Virus record (IMG/VR): IMGVR_UViG_3300029922_000244
Span: 1-29,641 of that record
Length of the DNA: 29,641 bases
Origin: a virus
Reading direction: 5' to 3' (one strand)
Made by a program: the position numbers and the translations under genes. Below are positions 8,932 through 18,882 of this stretch, one piece after another; position 1 is the first letter of the stretch; each line of letters starts with the position of its first letter. The notes under the pieces are model-generated. The model was not told the DNA's origin. It ran no database searches and saw only the letters and a list, made by a program, of their open reading frames with translations.

Positions 8932-9041
8932 TGTTTTGCGTTTTTTAGGTTAAACATAAACTTTGCGAGTAACGGCACTCCCAACCTGTCGCAATATTTG
9001 CGTCGGTGTTTGTATGGACGGAATATTAGGCTGATGGTCAT
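8928..9041 (-). CDS. Very small basic protein (37 aa)
   Basis: The frame is bounded by ATGA overlaps on both sides: its start with the stop of the repeat protein (9038-9041), its stop with the YopX start (8928-8931). The product is strongly basic (MTISLIFRPYKHRRKYCDR, later FMFNLKNAKQ). Such a short basic protein could bind nucleic acid, but the sequence shows no domain. It may act mainly as a coupling leader for YopX translation. Confidence 0.6.
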   Translation of the reverse strand: MTISLIFRPYKHRRKYCDRLGVPLLAKFMFNLKNAKQ

Positions 9042-9847
9042 TGTGCTAAAAAGTTTTCCAAAGTAAATGGCAATCCGGTTTGCTCGAATGCGGCTAATTG
9101 CTCCAATAACGCAAAAGCGGGCTCGTCTTCTGTTTTCGAGAAATCATGAAAAGGATAATCAGGATGCGCTTTTAATGCAATTAAGGCAGATTCGTTTACA
9201 TAATCGCCTTTGAATTTATACCCTTTTACTATTGCCATTTGCACAAGATTGCCGCCAATACACATAGGCGTTCCGCAGATGTGGCAAGTTAGCTTGTCGC
9301 CAAAAGTTGATTGTTTTAAAATGCGTTTGCCTTCTTTTATTTCAGATAACATTACGGAGTAGGGCATTTCTAAAACCGGGATTGCATCCCATTCAGCCAA
9401 ATCTTTTTTTGAGTAACCCGCAGACAGCACCTCTGATGCTGAGTAACCCGCAGACAGCACCTCTGATGCTGAGTAACCCGCAGACAGCAACTGTGATGCT
9501 GAGTAACCCGCAGACAGCAACTGTGATGCTGAGTAACCCGCAGACAGCACCTCTGATGCTGAGTAACCCGCAGACAGCAACTGTGATGCTGAGTAACCCG
9601 CAGACAGCAACTCTGATGCTGAGTAACCCGCAGACAGCACCTCTGATGCTGAGTAACCCGCAGACAGCACCTCTGATGCTGAGTAACCCGCAGACAGCAC
9701 CTCTGATGCTGAGTAACCCGCAGACAGCAACTCTGATGCTGAGTAACCCGCAGACAGCAACTGTGATGCTGAGTAACCCGCAGACAGCAACTGTGATTTA
9801 TTTATCGCTTTTAAAGCTAAGTCTTTTTGTTCTTTTGTGAAGTTCAT
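9038..9847 (-). CDS. Decapeptide-repeat protein with C-terminal zinc knuckle (269 aa)
   Basis: After a lysine-rich lead (MNFTKEQKDLALKAINKS) come thirteen consecutive 10-residue units of the form x-x-LSAGYSAS (residues 19-147), then a unique C-terminal domain with CHICGTPMC. Only the first two positions of the unit vary: Gln-Leu, Glu-Leu or Glu-Val, never Gln-Val. Similar AG(Y/F)SAxxL decapeptide repeats occur in many unrelated proteins and probably form a regular helical or solenoid stack, but I know of no assigned activity. The near-identical 30-bp DNA units imply recent expansion and a copy number likely to differ between related phages. The C-terminal zinc knuckle suggests a binding role. 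Confidence 0.8.
   Translation of the reverse strand: MNFTKEQKDLALKAINKSQLLSAGYSASQLLSAGYSASELLSAGYSASEVLSAGYSASEVLSAGYSASEVLSAGYSASELLSAGYSASQLLSAGYSASEVLSAGYSASQLLSAGYSASQLLSAGYSASEVLSAGYSASEVLSAGYSKKDLAEWDAIPVLEMPYSVMLSEIKEGKRILKQSTFGDKLTCHICGTPMCIGGNLVQMAIVKGYKFKGDYVNESALIALKAHPDYPFHDFSKTEDEPAFALLEQLAAFEQTGLPFTLENFLAQ
9411..9796. repeat. Thirteen 30-bp tandem repeats inside a gene
   Basis: Head-to-tail units beginning GAGTAACCCGCAGACAGCA on the plus strand, with no spacer sequence. Units differ almost only at two bases, one in each of two codons (GAG/CAG and GTG/TTG on the coding strand); the thirteenth diverges at its end. They encode the decapeptide array. Continuous tandem copies without spacers exclude a CRISPR array. 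Confidence 0.95.
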
Positions 9848-10244: not shown

Positions 10245-10355
10245 TTATTCAGCTTTTTTCAGATTCCATCCATCCGCCATCCATTGCGGCACATTAACGG
10301 TTTCTTTTTTCTTGCTAAAAATATTTTTTATGAAATTAAAAACCTTATTTTTCAT
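10245..10355 (-). CDS. Small basic protein (36 aa), first early gene
   Basis: An ATG at 10353-10355 about 30 nt downstream of the predicted leftward early start point opens a frame reading MKNKVFNFIKNIFSKKKE and ending WMADGWNLKKAE. The N-terminal half is amphipathic and basic. The position as first gene after the early promoter is typical of small phage regulatory or host-takeover peptides, but no domain is recognisable. Confidence 0.5.
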   Translation of the reverse strand: MKNKVFNFIKNIFSKKKETVNVPQWMADGWNLKKAE

Positions 10356-10389: not shown

Positions 10390-10422
10390 TAAAGGTAATA
10401 AAAGGTTTTTGATATAAACAAA
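10390..10422 (-). promoter_or_regulatory. Leftward early promoter
   Basis: On the minus strand a -33 TTTG (10422-10419), 21 nt, and a -7 TACCTTTA (10397-10390) fit the Bacteroidota consensus TTTG/TAnnTTTG with one mismatch. Transcription would start near 10384 and run through the whole left-arm operon. The -33 box lies inside the palindrome at 10415-10432. Confidence 0.6.
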
Positions 10423-10432
10423 TGTTTGTCTA
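10415..10432. promoter_or_regulatory. Operator palindrome, copy 1
   Basis: TAAACAAA-TG-TTTGTCTA is an 8-2-8 palindrome with one mismatched pair. It shares its left arm exactly with the second copy at 10698-10715 and covers the -33 box of the leftward early promoter. A protein bound here would block that promoter. Confidence 0.6.
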
Positions 10433-10475
10433 AAACTTATACAAAAACCTTTACAATGGCTTTAAAGAATTTAAT

Positions 10476-10658
10476 TTATAATATTATTTTGTTTGCTTTT
10501 TTTTCAAAACCTTTGATATGTTTATGATGCTTCACGGCTAATTCAATAGCAGTTCCACGATTGCCAAAAAGTCTTATGGCATTATCGCTTGTGGTTTCCG
10601 AAATACTGCATGTCATTGACCTTTTTTTTTCCTTTTCTTTTTTATGAGGTGCGCCCAT
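10476..10658 (-). CDS. Probable ribbon-helix-helix repressor (60 aa)
   Basis: A short, very basic protein. Residues 14-19 (SMTCSI) could form the beta strand, residues 20-31 (ETTSDNAIRLFG) the first helix, and residues 33-46 (NRGTAIELAVKHHK) the second helix, joined by a GN turn. This is the layout of ribbon-helix-helix (Arc/CopG-type) DNA-binding proteins that bind palindromes as dimers. The gene lies between two copies of one 18-bp palindrome, one overlapping its own promoter, which strongly suggests an autoregulator of the early genes. The assignment is structural inference; no invariant family motif exists to check. Confidence 0.55.
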   Translation of the reverse strand: MGAPHKKEKEKKRSMTCSISETTSDNAIRLFGNRGTAIELAVKHHKHIKGFEKKANKIIL

Positions 10659-10674
10659 GTTTTAATATTTTAGG

Positions 10675-10705
10675 CAAATGTAAAGATAATTTATTTCTAA
10701 ACAAA
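10675..10705 (-). promoter_or_regulatory. Promoter of the repressor-like gene
   Basis: On the minus strand TTTG (10705-10702), 19 nt, then TACATTTG (10682-10675) match the Bacteroidota -33/-7 consensus exactly. The predicted start near 10668 leaves about 10 nt before the ATG at 10658. The -33 box is the left arm of the palindrome at 10698-10715. Confidence 0.75.
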
Positions 10706-10715
10706 AATTTGTTTA
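10698..10715. promoter_or_regulatory. Operator palindrome, copy 2, shared by divergent promoters
   Basis: TAAACAAA-AA-TTTGTTTA is a perfect 8-2-8 palindrome. Each arm contains a TTTG that acts as -33 box for one of two back-to-back promoters: leftward for the repressor-like gene, rightward for the PAPS-reductase-like gene. Confidence 0.65.
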
Positions 10716-10739
10716 TTCGCTTTTGTTTATTTTACTTTG
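10708..10739 (+). promoter_or_regulatory. Rightward promoter of the PAPS-reductase-like gene
   Basis: TTTG (10708-10711), 20 nt, then TTACTTTG (10732-10739) fit the Bacteroidota consensus with one mismatch. Transcription would start near 10745, which rules out the in-frame TTG at 10737 and supports the ATG at 10770. Confidence 0.6.
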
Positions 10740-10769
10740 CATCCTCAACAAACTTTTTTAAGAAATAAA

Positions 10770-11633
10770 ATGAAGCCATTAGTTATTGCCTTTAGCGGTG
10801 GGCGTACATCGGCTTATATGACCAAACTTTTACTTGAAAAATATTCAGGTAAAAGGGATATTGCTGTCATATTCGCTAATACAGGACAAGAGCGTGAGGA
10901 AACTTTAGAGTTTGTCCATAATTGTGATATTCATTTCAATTTCAATACCGTATGGATAGAGGTAGTTCCTAACCCTGAATTTGGTAAGGGTTGCACCTAT
11001 GATATAGTTACTTTTGAAACCGCCAATCGTAAAGGCTTGCCATTTGAACGAGTAATAGCTAAGTATGGCATATCCAATCATGGAGCGCAACATTGCAGCC
11101 GAGAATTGAAGCATTACCCTATTAAAAAGCATATCAATAGTCTTGGATGGAAAGACTATGAAATTGCATTAGGAATAAGAATAGATGAACCCAAGCGGCT
11201 TACACCCAAAAAGGATATTATATACCCTTTAGCAAAAGAATTTCCCACTAATAAATTGATGGTTAACCAATGGTGGCATAACCAACCATTTAATTTGCAG
11301 TTGAAGGATTATGAAGGGAATTGCAAATTGTGTTGGAAAAAATCAAAAAGAAAGCTATTGACTATCATTTTAGAACACCCTGAATTTCTTGACTGGTGGA
11401 ATGAAATGGAAATTAAATACGGTTATTACGTTCCCGATAGCCATAAGCACAATAAGAATTTGATTGTACCTGCTCACTTTTTTAGGGGAGATGAAAGTGC
11501 AATGGATTTATTAGAAGAAAGTAAGTTGCCATTTACTAAACAAGAGGATGCTTTTACTCTTGCTCAATTAATGTTCTCGGAACCTGAATTGGACTTTAGT
11601 AACGGCTGCGAGGAAAGTTGCGAAGCATTTTAA
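10770..11633 (+). CDS. PAPS-reductase-like ATP pyrophosphatase family protein
   Basis: A 287-residue member of the HUP/PP-loop superfamily that includes PAPS reductase and DndC. The PP-loop is at the N-terminus (IAFSGGRTSAYM), followed by VIFANTGQEREETLEFV, the usual second strand with the TGQE motif. Later come QHCSRELKHYPIKKHI and NCKLCWKKSKRK, whose cysteines (one, then a CxxC) could hold an iron-sulfur cluster, as in several relatives. Phage homologues are common but their substrate is unknown; sulfur transfer to nucleic acid is only a possibility. It is transcribed opposite the early operon from a promoter under the shared palindrome. The C-terminus has an extra GCEESC. Confidence 0.85.
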   Translation: MKPLVIAFSGGRTSAYMTKLLLEKYSGKRDIAVIFANTGQEREETLEFVHNCDIHFNFNTVWIEVVPNPEFGKGCTYDIVTFETANRKGLPFERVIAKYGISNHGAQHCSRELKHYPIKKHINSLGWKDYEIALGIRIDEPKRLTPKKDIIYPLAKEFPTNKLMVNQWWHNQPFNLQLKDYEGNCKLCWKKSKRKLLTIILEHPEFLDWWNEMEIKYGYYVPDSHKHNKNLIVPAHFFRGDESAMDLLEESKLPFTKQEDAFTLAQLMFSEPELDFSNGCEESCEAF

Positions 11634-16019: not shown

Positions 16020-16391
16020 TAGCCACCCCTCGGCAAATCCTTAGCCACTACCCCTTTATATTAAAATTAAGTGAAGGCTGTTTATTGTTTTGCATTTGCA
16101 AAACGTTGAAACATTTTATTGAATTTTATCCATGTTAATTTATTAGTGGATGTTTTCAGGTGGTAGAGTGGCTAAGATTTCAAAACCCCGGTCAATACAA
16201 AATAACATATTTATTTTTTCTGTGGCTGTCATCTTTCCTTTCCTATGGCTGTTTTAGCCACTTAGCCACTACTTGTTCACCTTTTATTTATAAAAAAAAT
16301 AAAGTAGTATATTATACTACAAAAAGCTAATAAGATAGCCTAATTATTCTATGTAGCAAATAAAAGGCTGTTTTTAGTGGCTATGTGGCTA
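16020..16391. other. Candidate replication origin with iterons
   Basis: Seven copies of TAGCCACT or a one-base variant occur in about 370 nt just after the replication gene: 16020-16026 (partial), 16042-16050, 16167-16174 (inverted), tandem pairs at 16255-16262 and 16263-16271, and inverted tandem pairs at 16376-16383 and 16384-16391. The two tandem pairs face each other across an AT-rich core that holds a 17-bp palindrome. GGCTGTTT recurs at 16075, 16247 and 16366. Repeats beside a replication initiator gene with an AT-rich stretch are the classic origin pattern, but this is inferred from layout. No coding frame of note occupies 16017-16484. Confidence 0.55.
16304..16320. repeat. 17-bp palindrome in the AT-rich core
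   Basis: GTAGTATA-T-TATACTAC is a perfect palindrome at the centre of the region between the iteron pairs. It could be a melting site, a protein-binding site or a weak hairpin. It lacks a T run, so it is not an obvious terminator. Confidence 0.6.
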
Positions 16392-17085: not shown

Positions 17086-17221
17086 GCAACATATGAAATG
17101 CTGCAAAAAAATATTTGGTTACTCTGATTTCAAAAAATGTTGCTGGAATGTTGCGACAAAATATTACCTTTGATATGACGGGGCTGAAATGTGTACTGAT
17201 ATTGGATTGTAATGTTGCAAC
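17086..17221 (+). promoter_or_regulatory. Promoter with TGTTGC repeats before the packaging genes
   Basis: TACCTTTG (17165-17172) matches the -7 consensus exactly and the start would be near 17179, about 50 nt before the ATG at 17232. The usual -33 box is imperfect: TTG is 22 nt upstream. Around it lie copies of TGTTGC or its complement, at 17086-17091 (GCAACA), 17138-17143, 17149-17154 and 17213-17218; the last is in the perfect palindrome TGTTGCAACA (17213-17222). The repeats look like operator half-sites that control the transition to packaging genes. Confidence 0.5.
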
Positions 17222-17231
17222 AAGGTAAGAT

Positions 17232-17462
17232 ATGCGTATTTTATGTATTAACGATTACCCGTGCGATTTGCATATACAAGACATACTCATGTATAATGCA
17301 GAATCTTTTAAATGGATGAAAGAGAACGCCGCTGAGGTGAAATTTACTTTTTCAGTTATGGACAATATAATGCGCCTCTCAGTCATACTAAAGAGCGCAC
17401 ATTTGACGAAGATAGAAATAGAAAACCTTTATCCTGAAAATAAATGGCGCTCCATACTTTAG
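17232..17462 (+). CDS. Hypothetical protein (76 aa)
   Basis: A small protein starting MRILCINDYPCDLHIQDILMY with two cysteines but no clear metal site; the rest is beta/alpha (KFTFSVMDNIMRLSVIL). It overlaps the terminase small subunit gene by 19 nt and follows the -7 box at 17165, so it is the first gene of the late transcript. No family recognised. Confidence 0.6.
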   Translation: MRILCINDYPCDLHIQDILMYNAESFKWMKENAAEVKFTFSVMDNIMRLSVILKSAHLTKIEIENLYPENKWRSIL

Positions 17463-18203: not shown

Positions 18204-18255
18204 GCGTAATTTACGCCAAAATTAAAAGACGCTATTTCGTTCATATCTAAGTTTG
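18204..18255 (+). promoter_or_regulatory. Late promoter 1 with shared upstream motif
   Basis: GCGTA-ATT-TACGC followed by CAAAATTAAA (18204-18226) precedes the -7 box TAAGTTTG (18248-18255), with no good -33 box between. The second late promoter at 21124-21174 shares 20 of 23 positions of the upstream motif, and the 14 nt TATCTAAGTTTGTT are identical. A phage activator bound to the inverted repeat would explain the missing -33 box. Confidence 0.65.
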
Positions 18256-18279
18256 TTTATTCAAAAAACAAATTTTCTT

Positions 18280-18882
18280 ATGAAAAAGCTATTTTTCCTT
18301 TCTCTTTTCTGCCTTTTATCTTCTGTCATTTTCGCGCAGCCATATATATTGCCCGATAAACAGGGCCAGCTCTGGAACGTGGCCAATGGATATTATGGTA
18401 CTATTAATGCCAATACCGTGGATGCCTCTGTAGCCCTCGATTCCATATTTGCAACGACCAAGGTATTTTATCTCGCAGAATGGTACCGGATTCCGGCTTC
18501 CGGCATTACACCTTATGACAGTGCGCGGATTCTGAAGATAAACAAATCGGGCAGCGGCCCCTATTACCAGCCTTATACGTGGGGATATACCGGTAAAGGA
18601 ACGTTATCTATAACGGCACAATGCTATAAAGCATCTACGAGCAATACTGTAACCCCTACCGTTACCGTTACACCAGTGCAATCGCCGGATGGAATTGTAG
18701 GCGACTATGTAACCATACCGGGCATTACGGTGGCTACTTTATCGCCGACGAGCAGAACGGCATCTGCCAACTGCACGTTTAACCAGCTTGATATCTATCA
18801 ACGGTATTTTGGTGTAAGCGTTACTGTAACTGACAGTGCCAGTTGCCGGATACTCTTTAATATCAAAGCCAAAACTTATTAA
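18280..18882 (+). CDS. Exported protein with signal peptide (200 aa)
   Basis: The first ATG after the late promoter's -7 box (18280) gives a classic signal peptide: MKKLFFLSLFCLLSSVI ending FAQ, with cleavage after FAQ likely. The mature part is beta-rich with many serine, threonine and tyrosine residues (TVTPTVTVTPVQ, SPTSRTASANCTF) and two cysteines that could form a disulfide, fitting a periplasmic or surface protein. It has its own promoter and a terminator 30 nt later and is therefore probably a separate late unit, perhaps a lysogenic-conversion or exclusion gene. No family recognised. Confidence 0.7.
   Translation: MKKLFFLSLFCLLSSVIFAQPYILPDKQGQLWNVANGYYGTINANTVDASVALDSIFATTKVFYLAEWYRIPASGITPYDSARILKINKSGSGPYYQPYTWGYTGKGTLSITAQCYKASTSNTVTPTVTVTPVQSPDGIVGDYVTIPGITVATLSPTSRTASANCTFNQLDIYQRYFGVSVTVTDSASCRILFNIKAKTY

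Follow-up and report, generated by a model that had tools for sequence, protein, structure and literature searches.

A predicted compact switch with operators built on −33 boxes in a phage of likely Bacteroidota origin

Bacteroidota are a dominant phylum in the gut and in water, and to our knowledge few switches of their phages are known in molecular detail. In phage lambda, the operator cluster O_R lies between the repressor gene and the opposite operon, where it overlaps core elements of P_RM and P_R, and the other early operon is governed by a second operator. Arc of phage P22, with 53 residues and a ribbon-helix-helix (RHH) fold, is autoregulated, and small repressors (Arc and Mnt) control divergent promoters. 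The immI genes of P22 have been described (PMC2629481). RepC_HP of the Bacteroides hankyphage is a CI-like repressor of the HTH type that shares 37% identity with lambda CI (PMC12135933). Finally, symmetrical DNA at bidirectional promoters of E. coli engages polymerase in two mutually exclusive orientations, with a shared −10 element and starts roughly 10–23 bp apart (PMC12825309).

We analysed a linear 29.6-kb IMG/VR virus record (the window, that is, the whole stretch of 29,641 nt), which lacks end repeats and is perhaps a fragment. Its genes run leftward to the left of ~10.4 kb and rightward from 10.77 kb. Around this divide lie two closely matching palindromes, O1 and O2, which we propose to be operators, and three predicted promoters, P_L, P_rep and P_R, whose −33 boxes are palindrome arms. 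The locus seems to be a variant of the familiar phage on/off switch, a compact Bacteroidota-phage form with its operators built on −33 boxes.

Like the lambda immunity region, the locus would combine a shared operator at divergent promoters with a second operator for the other early operon. Lambda has three operators and the CI repressor, whereas here a single 18-bp palindrome gives both −33 boxes and no CI-like protein was recognised in the record. P22 immI is similar in having a small phage repressor (a proposed one in our case) at divergent promoters; the two differ in their target genes, in the operator here doubling as −33 boxes and in the want of any match here to the Arc profile. The hankyphage resembles the proposed system in being a temperate phage of Bacteroidota that a small repressor of its own keeps in check, but the resemblance of RepC_HP to lambda CI is absent from the protein proposed here, and the available part of the RepC_HP description contains no comparable operator (PMC12135933). 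Unlike at the E. coli promoters, the −33 boxes abut here and the predicted starts lie ~75 bp apart.

Two matching palindromes around a 60-codon gene

O2 (TAAACAAA-AA-TTTGTTTA, 10698–10715) consists of two arms, 10698–10705 and 10708–10715, that are perfectly complementary across a central AA and each contain a TTTG; the earlier note had reported this palindrome and its position, and re-reading the sequence bore out both. By itself O2 is unremarkable, because dinucleotide shuffling of the 112-nt region yields a perfect 8-2-8 palindrome 2.9% of the time, and 8-bp arms separated by any gap of 0–6 in 14%. The earlier note caught only part of the arrangement: it overlooked O1, the leftward promoter that starts from O1, and a further half-site at 10722–10729.

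O1 (TAAACAAA-TG-TTTGTCTA, 10415–10432) sits across the 60-codon gene from O2, the two palindromes flanking this gene, and shares 15 of 16 arm bases with O2. No pair of 8-2-8 sites with 15/16 arm identity turned up in 1,000 shuffles, and a palindromic element of this kind, the proposed operator, is present at more than one predicted early promoter. The third half-site, an exact TTTGTTTA (10722–10729, + strand), lies within the spacer of P_R, 14 bp from the right half-site of O2. The 371 nt from 10400 to 10770 contain four exact half-sites where 0.26 are expected (0/3,000 simulations). O2 is more than chance, because it comes with a second palindrome identical at 15/16 positions, with four half-sites and with a divergent promoter pair scoring 10/10 and at least 9/10, a pairing seen in 0.1% of shuffles of the O2 region. 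The observation on O2 and its divergent promoters is real, and the O1/O2 locus is a real regulatory region.

The 60-codon gene (10476–10658, − strand) codes like a real gene. Its codon log-odds of 0.169 per codon compare with a span of 0.06 to 0.37 for 34 genes of the window, and its score exceeds that of all 220 stop-free stretches in the wrong frame. To its right, the rightward operon opens with a PAPS-reductase-like gene (10770–11633, + strand; PF01507, E 1.4e-07; phrog_424, E 6.4e-50), and the right arm also carries genes for a primase-like protein, a GpA terminase, tail sheath, tape measure and baseplate. To its left, P_L is followed by a 36-codon ORF (10245–10355, − strand; codon log-odds 0.276), the first of the leftward operon, with a weak match to phrog_1022 (E 0.015). 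The terminase is closest, within the phage collection searched, to those of Flavobacterium phages (35% identity), so a host in the Bacteroidota is likely, although not proven.

O1 is itself enclosed in an 11-bp inverted repeat (AAAGGTTTTTG / CAAAAACCTTT). RNA of this stretch (10401–10452, − strand) is predicted to form a strong A+T-rich hairpin (−14.4 kcal/mol, z −3.3, 0/200 shuffles), with an 11-bp outer stem (AAAGGUUUUUG / CAAAAACCUUU) and O1 within the inner stem. In the leftward RNA this possible terminator lies ~24 nt beyond the stop of the 60-codon gene, and it may end that gene's transcript. An RNA element at O2 was considered and rejected, the fold being weak and Rfam giving no match within the window. 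Farther along, upstream of a gene that begins near 18280, TAAGTTTGTTTATTC (18248–18259) has an 11-mer in common with O2 (TTTGTTTATTC) and adjoins a TAnnTTTG box, possibly by chance.

Predicted promoters in the proposed operator arms

Each of the three predicted promoters pairs a TTTG near −33 with a −7 box of the Bacteroidota housekeeping type (sigma-ABfr / sigma-A, TAnnTTTG) across a spacer of 19, 20 or 21 nt. P_rep (TTTG-N19-TACATTTG, 10675–10705, − strand; predicted start ~10670) leads from the TTTG in the left arm of O2 (10705–10702) through 19 nt to TACATTTG (10682–10675), an exact match (10/10) and just the leftward promoter that had been noted before. The rightward promoter previously read from the right arm was recovered as well: P_R (10708–10740, + strand; predicted start ~10744–10745) runs from TTTG at 10708–10711 through 20 nt to TTACTTTG at 10732–10739. 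This TTTG-N20-TTACTTTG scores 9/10, its −7 box being one position off TAnnTTTG, and a shift of 1 nt gives TTTG-N21-TACTTTGC, in which TACTTTGC matches TAnnTTGY, the shorter −7 box of F. psychrophilum (PMC9723704). P_L (TTTG-N21-TACCTTTA with the TTTG taken from O1, 10390–10422, − strand; predicted start ~10385) likewise scores 9/10 with one letter off in its −7 box; it is the best leftward promoter ahead of the leftward operon, and a score of at least 9/10 occurs in 2.1% of shuffles of that stretch.

P_rep is the sole exact TTTG-N18-21-TAnnTTTG site in the window's intergenic DNA, two more lying within genes. Scoring of 23 gene upstream regions gave 9–10/10 for only three, each time with the TTTG supplied by an arm of O1 or O2. 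The scores benefit from a TTTG being forced in the arms, and it is fairer to say that −7 boxes stand correctly spaced from operator arms at all three sites. The region is also 80% A+T, which favours the occurrence of both TTTG and TAnnTTTG, and the weight of the TTTG −33 box depends on the host, because this box is established in Bacteroides and reportedly not identifiable in F. johnsoniae (PMC7366714). E. coli-type promoters, also tried, showed no excess.

With starts predicted from the −7 box lying at −12 to −5 (PMC9723704), the 5′ leaders would be 12 nt for P_rep, ~26 nt for P_R and ~30 nt for P_L, next to a median of 24 nt in F. psychrophilum (PMC9723704). The operator centres fall at approximately −37 to −39 relative to all three predicted starts. 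The two divergent promoters that score best in the region take their −33 boxes from the O2 arms, so any binder at O2 should hide both; judged from the sequence, the earlier proposal that occupancy of O2 would block both flanking genes is supported.

A proposed switch and its alternatives

The reading that we favour, and hold to be moderately probable, is an early phage switch. O1 and O2 would both be bound by one small protein, with the 60-residue product as the most likely candidate, and three −33 boxes would be hidden. A dimer of this small DNA-binding protein on O2 would cover the −33 boxes of P_rep and P_R and silence both. P_rep would drive the repressor's own gene, which would make the repressor autoregulatory, and P_R would drive the rightward operon of PAPS-reductase, primase and structural genes; a dimer on O1 would hide the −33 box of P_L and turn the leftward operon off. 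When repressor is lacking, polymerases on P_rep and P_R would compete, and they should exclude each other because the two −33 boxes lie 2 bp apart on opposite strands.

We take the 60-residue product to be the most likely repressor mainly because its gene lies between two operators, one of which carries the promoter of that gene. The protein matched no family in Pfam (E 1), PHROGs or NCBIfam, the RHH_1 (PF01402) and Arc (PF03869) profiles, run at E 10, gave no match in the record, and neither did the HTH_3 profile (PF01381), our criterion for lambda CI / XRE proteins. A weak single-sequence model of the monomer (pLDDT 65) predicts an extended N-terminus followed by helices at residues 21–31 and 34–58, with no strand assigned; it is compatible with the suspected ribbon-helix-helix fold, for which it is insufficient as evidence, and a Foldseek search with it gave no PDB match. 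Relatives of the protein were sought in viral contigs, among phages, in the viral records carrying PAPS-reductase loci and in 395 Bacteroidota genomes, and the only matches were weak ones indistinguishable from chance. Matches to WD40 repeats in a phmmer search of the PDB were discarded as near-zero scores summed over repeats.

The palindromes could instead be operators for another protein, encoded by the host or outside the 29.6-kb fragment, with the 60-residue product a bystander. A binder of that origin would not be visible in a record that lacks end repeats and is perhaps a fragment, and the 60-residue protein matched no DNA-binding family. We nevertheless regard this as unlikely, given that the 60-codon gene stands alone between the operators, that its promoter shares O2 as would be the case for an autoregulated repressor, and that the predicted helix pair after an extended N-terminus is compatible with a small DNA-binding fold.

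It is less likely still that the palindrome is a by-product of back-to-back promoters and that regulation, if any, works through polymerase competition alone. The geometry lends itself to this account: abutting TTTG boxes always give a CAAA-NN-TTTG core, which A+T-rich flanks lengthen, and a palindrome on its own is, as shown by its 2.9% frequency among shuffles, easily come by. Back-to-back promoters with centre gaps of 1 to 30 also occur between divergent genes in many viral contigs, and E. coli commonly has bidirectional promoters at which polymerases compete (PMC12825309). A by-product would not be expected, however, at O1, where one promoter suffices and a full 8-2-8 palindrome is nevertheless present; its arms match those of O2 even in the flanking TAAA, and the third half-site stands between the −33 and −7 boxes of P_R. 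Highly improbable is a role of the sites in activation, whether through a true activator or through a repressor that doubles as the activator of one promoter, as lambda CI does at PRM: operator centres at approximately −37 to −39 are near class II activator positions, but the −33 TTTG itself lies within the arms, and P_rep, already an exact consensus, should need no help.

Recurrence of the layout and its reach

The design had been called unusually compact, a description that holds in part. The exact layout, with a gap of 2, is rare in Bacteroidota genomes (3/296, control 0; 7/247 against 2 control matches when gaps of 0–30 are allowed), but it is not unique, because other viral contigs carry it with other palindromes. 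The pattern CAAANNTA-N18-21-CAAANNTTTG-N18-21-TANNTTTG occurs in 14 viral stretches compared with 4 for the reversed pattern; after removal of repeats ~12 remain, 8 of them outside genes, whereas 3 of the 4 controls lie inside genes. Placement is tight between divergent ORFs in contigs L042, L043/L051, L046 and L048. Neighbours of such sites include small HTH-like proteins (L042, weakly HTH_3-like; L084, a weak HTH match; L046 and L079, DnaA_C-like), the centre gap being 5 in L079 and L084. When the centre was allowed to vary, 36 of the 69 distinct sites in viral contigs lay between divergent ORFs at gaps of 1–30, a count that covers the matches listed and has no viral control beside it; among these matches a preference for a 2-nt centre gap was not seen, gaps of 1–6 and of 12–30 both occurring.

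In the related viral contigs L043 (1755–1818) and L051 (4494–4556), both −33 boxes come from a palindrome with 10-bp arms, TTTGTACAAA-CA-TTTGTACAAA, which stands between two small, divergently oriented genes of unknown function. The viral contigs L065, L066, L078, L082, L118 and L122 form a family in which a divergent promoter pair is conserved, its −33 boxes being separated by 22 nt.

The exact O2 palindrome was also considered as a widespread operator and rejected. It occurs at no fewer than 96 distinct viral sites, and the O2 sequence itself is not a shared operator, because only 13 of those listed are intergenic, against 24/72 for the reversed control. PAPS-reductase relatives were found in 31 viral contigs (37–60% identity) and 2 genome contigs. 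An O2-like palindrome is absent upstream of these genes in the 31 viral contigs, which are too distant for this to count as refutation, and no homologue of the 60-residue protein was found at the loci of these distant relatives. Searches with the terminase and the primase found no close relatives of the phage, nor did any close relative of the locus turn up.

It is possible, if doubtful, that Bacteroidota phages repeatedly make one operator palindrome serve as the −33 pair of opposing promoters, and that the small repressor here belongs to a family not described before. A repressor would find a symmetrical site in CAAA-NN-TTTG, which polymerase would read as two −33 boxes set back to back, and both functions could then evolve as one sequence. 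If the favoured reading is right, the locus would offer a small, ready-made switch of two operators and three promoters for Bacteroidota, a search rule for further phage switches (CAAA-NN-TTTG between two TAnnTTTG boxes) and a natural test of repressor occlusion plus polymerase competition at abutting −33 boxes.

Three other stretches of the window carry repeats. After the primase-like gene, 7 of the window's 15 copies of TAGCCAC/GTGGCTA fall within 370 nt of intergenic DNA (16020–16391), an iteron-like cluster and possible replication origin. Three imperfect copies of TGnAATGTTGCnACAA at 17094–17223, ahead of a gene at 17232, could be a site for a second regulator. On the leftward strand, the protein encoded at 9038–9847 contains the decapeptide LSAGYSASE/Q repeated many times in tandem (PF25296, E 4.2e-40).
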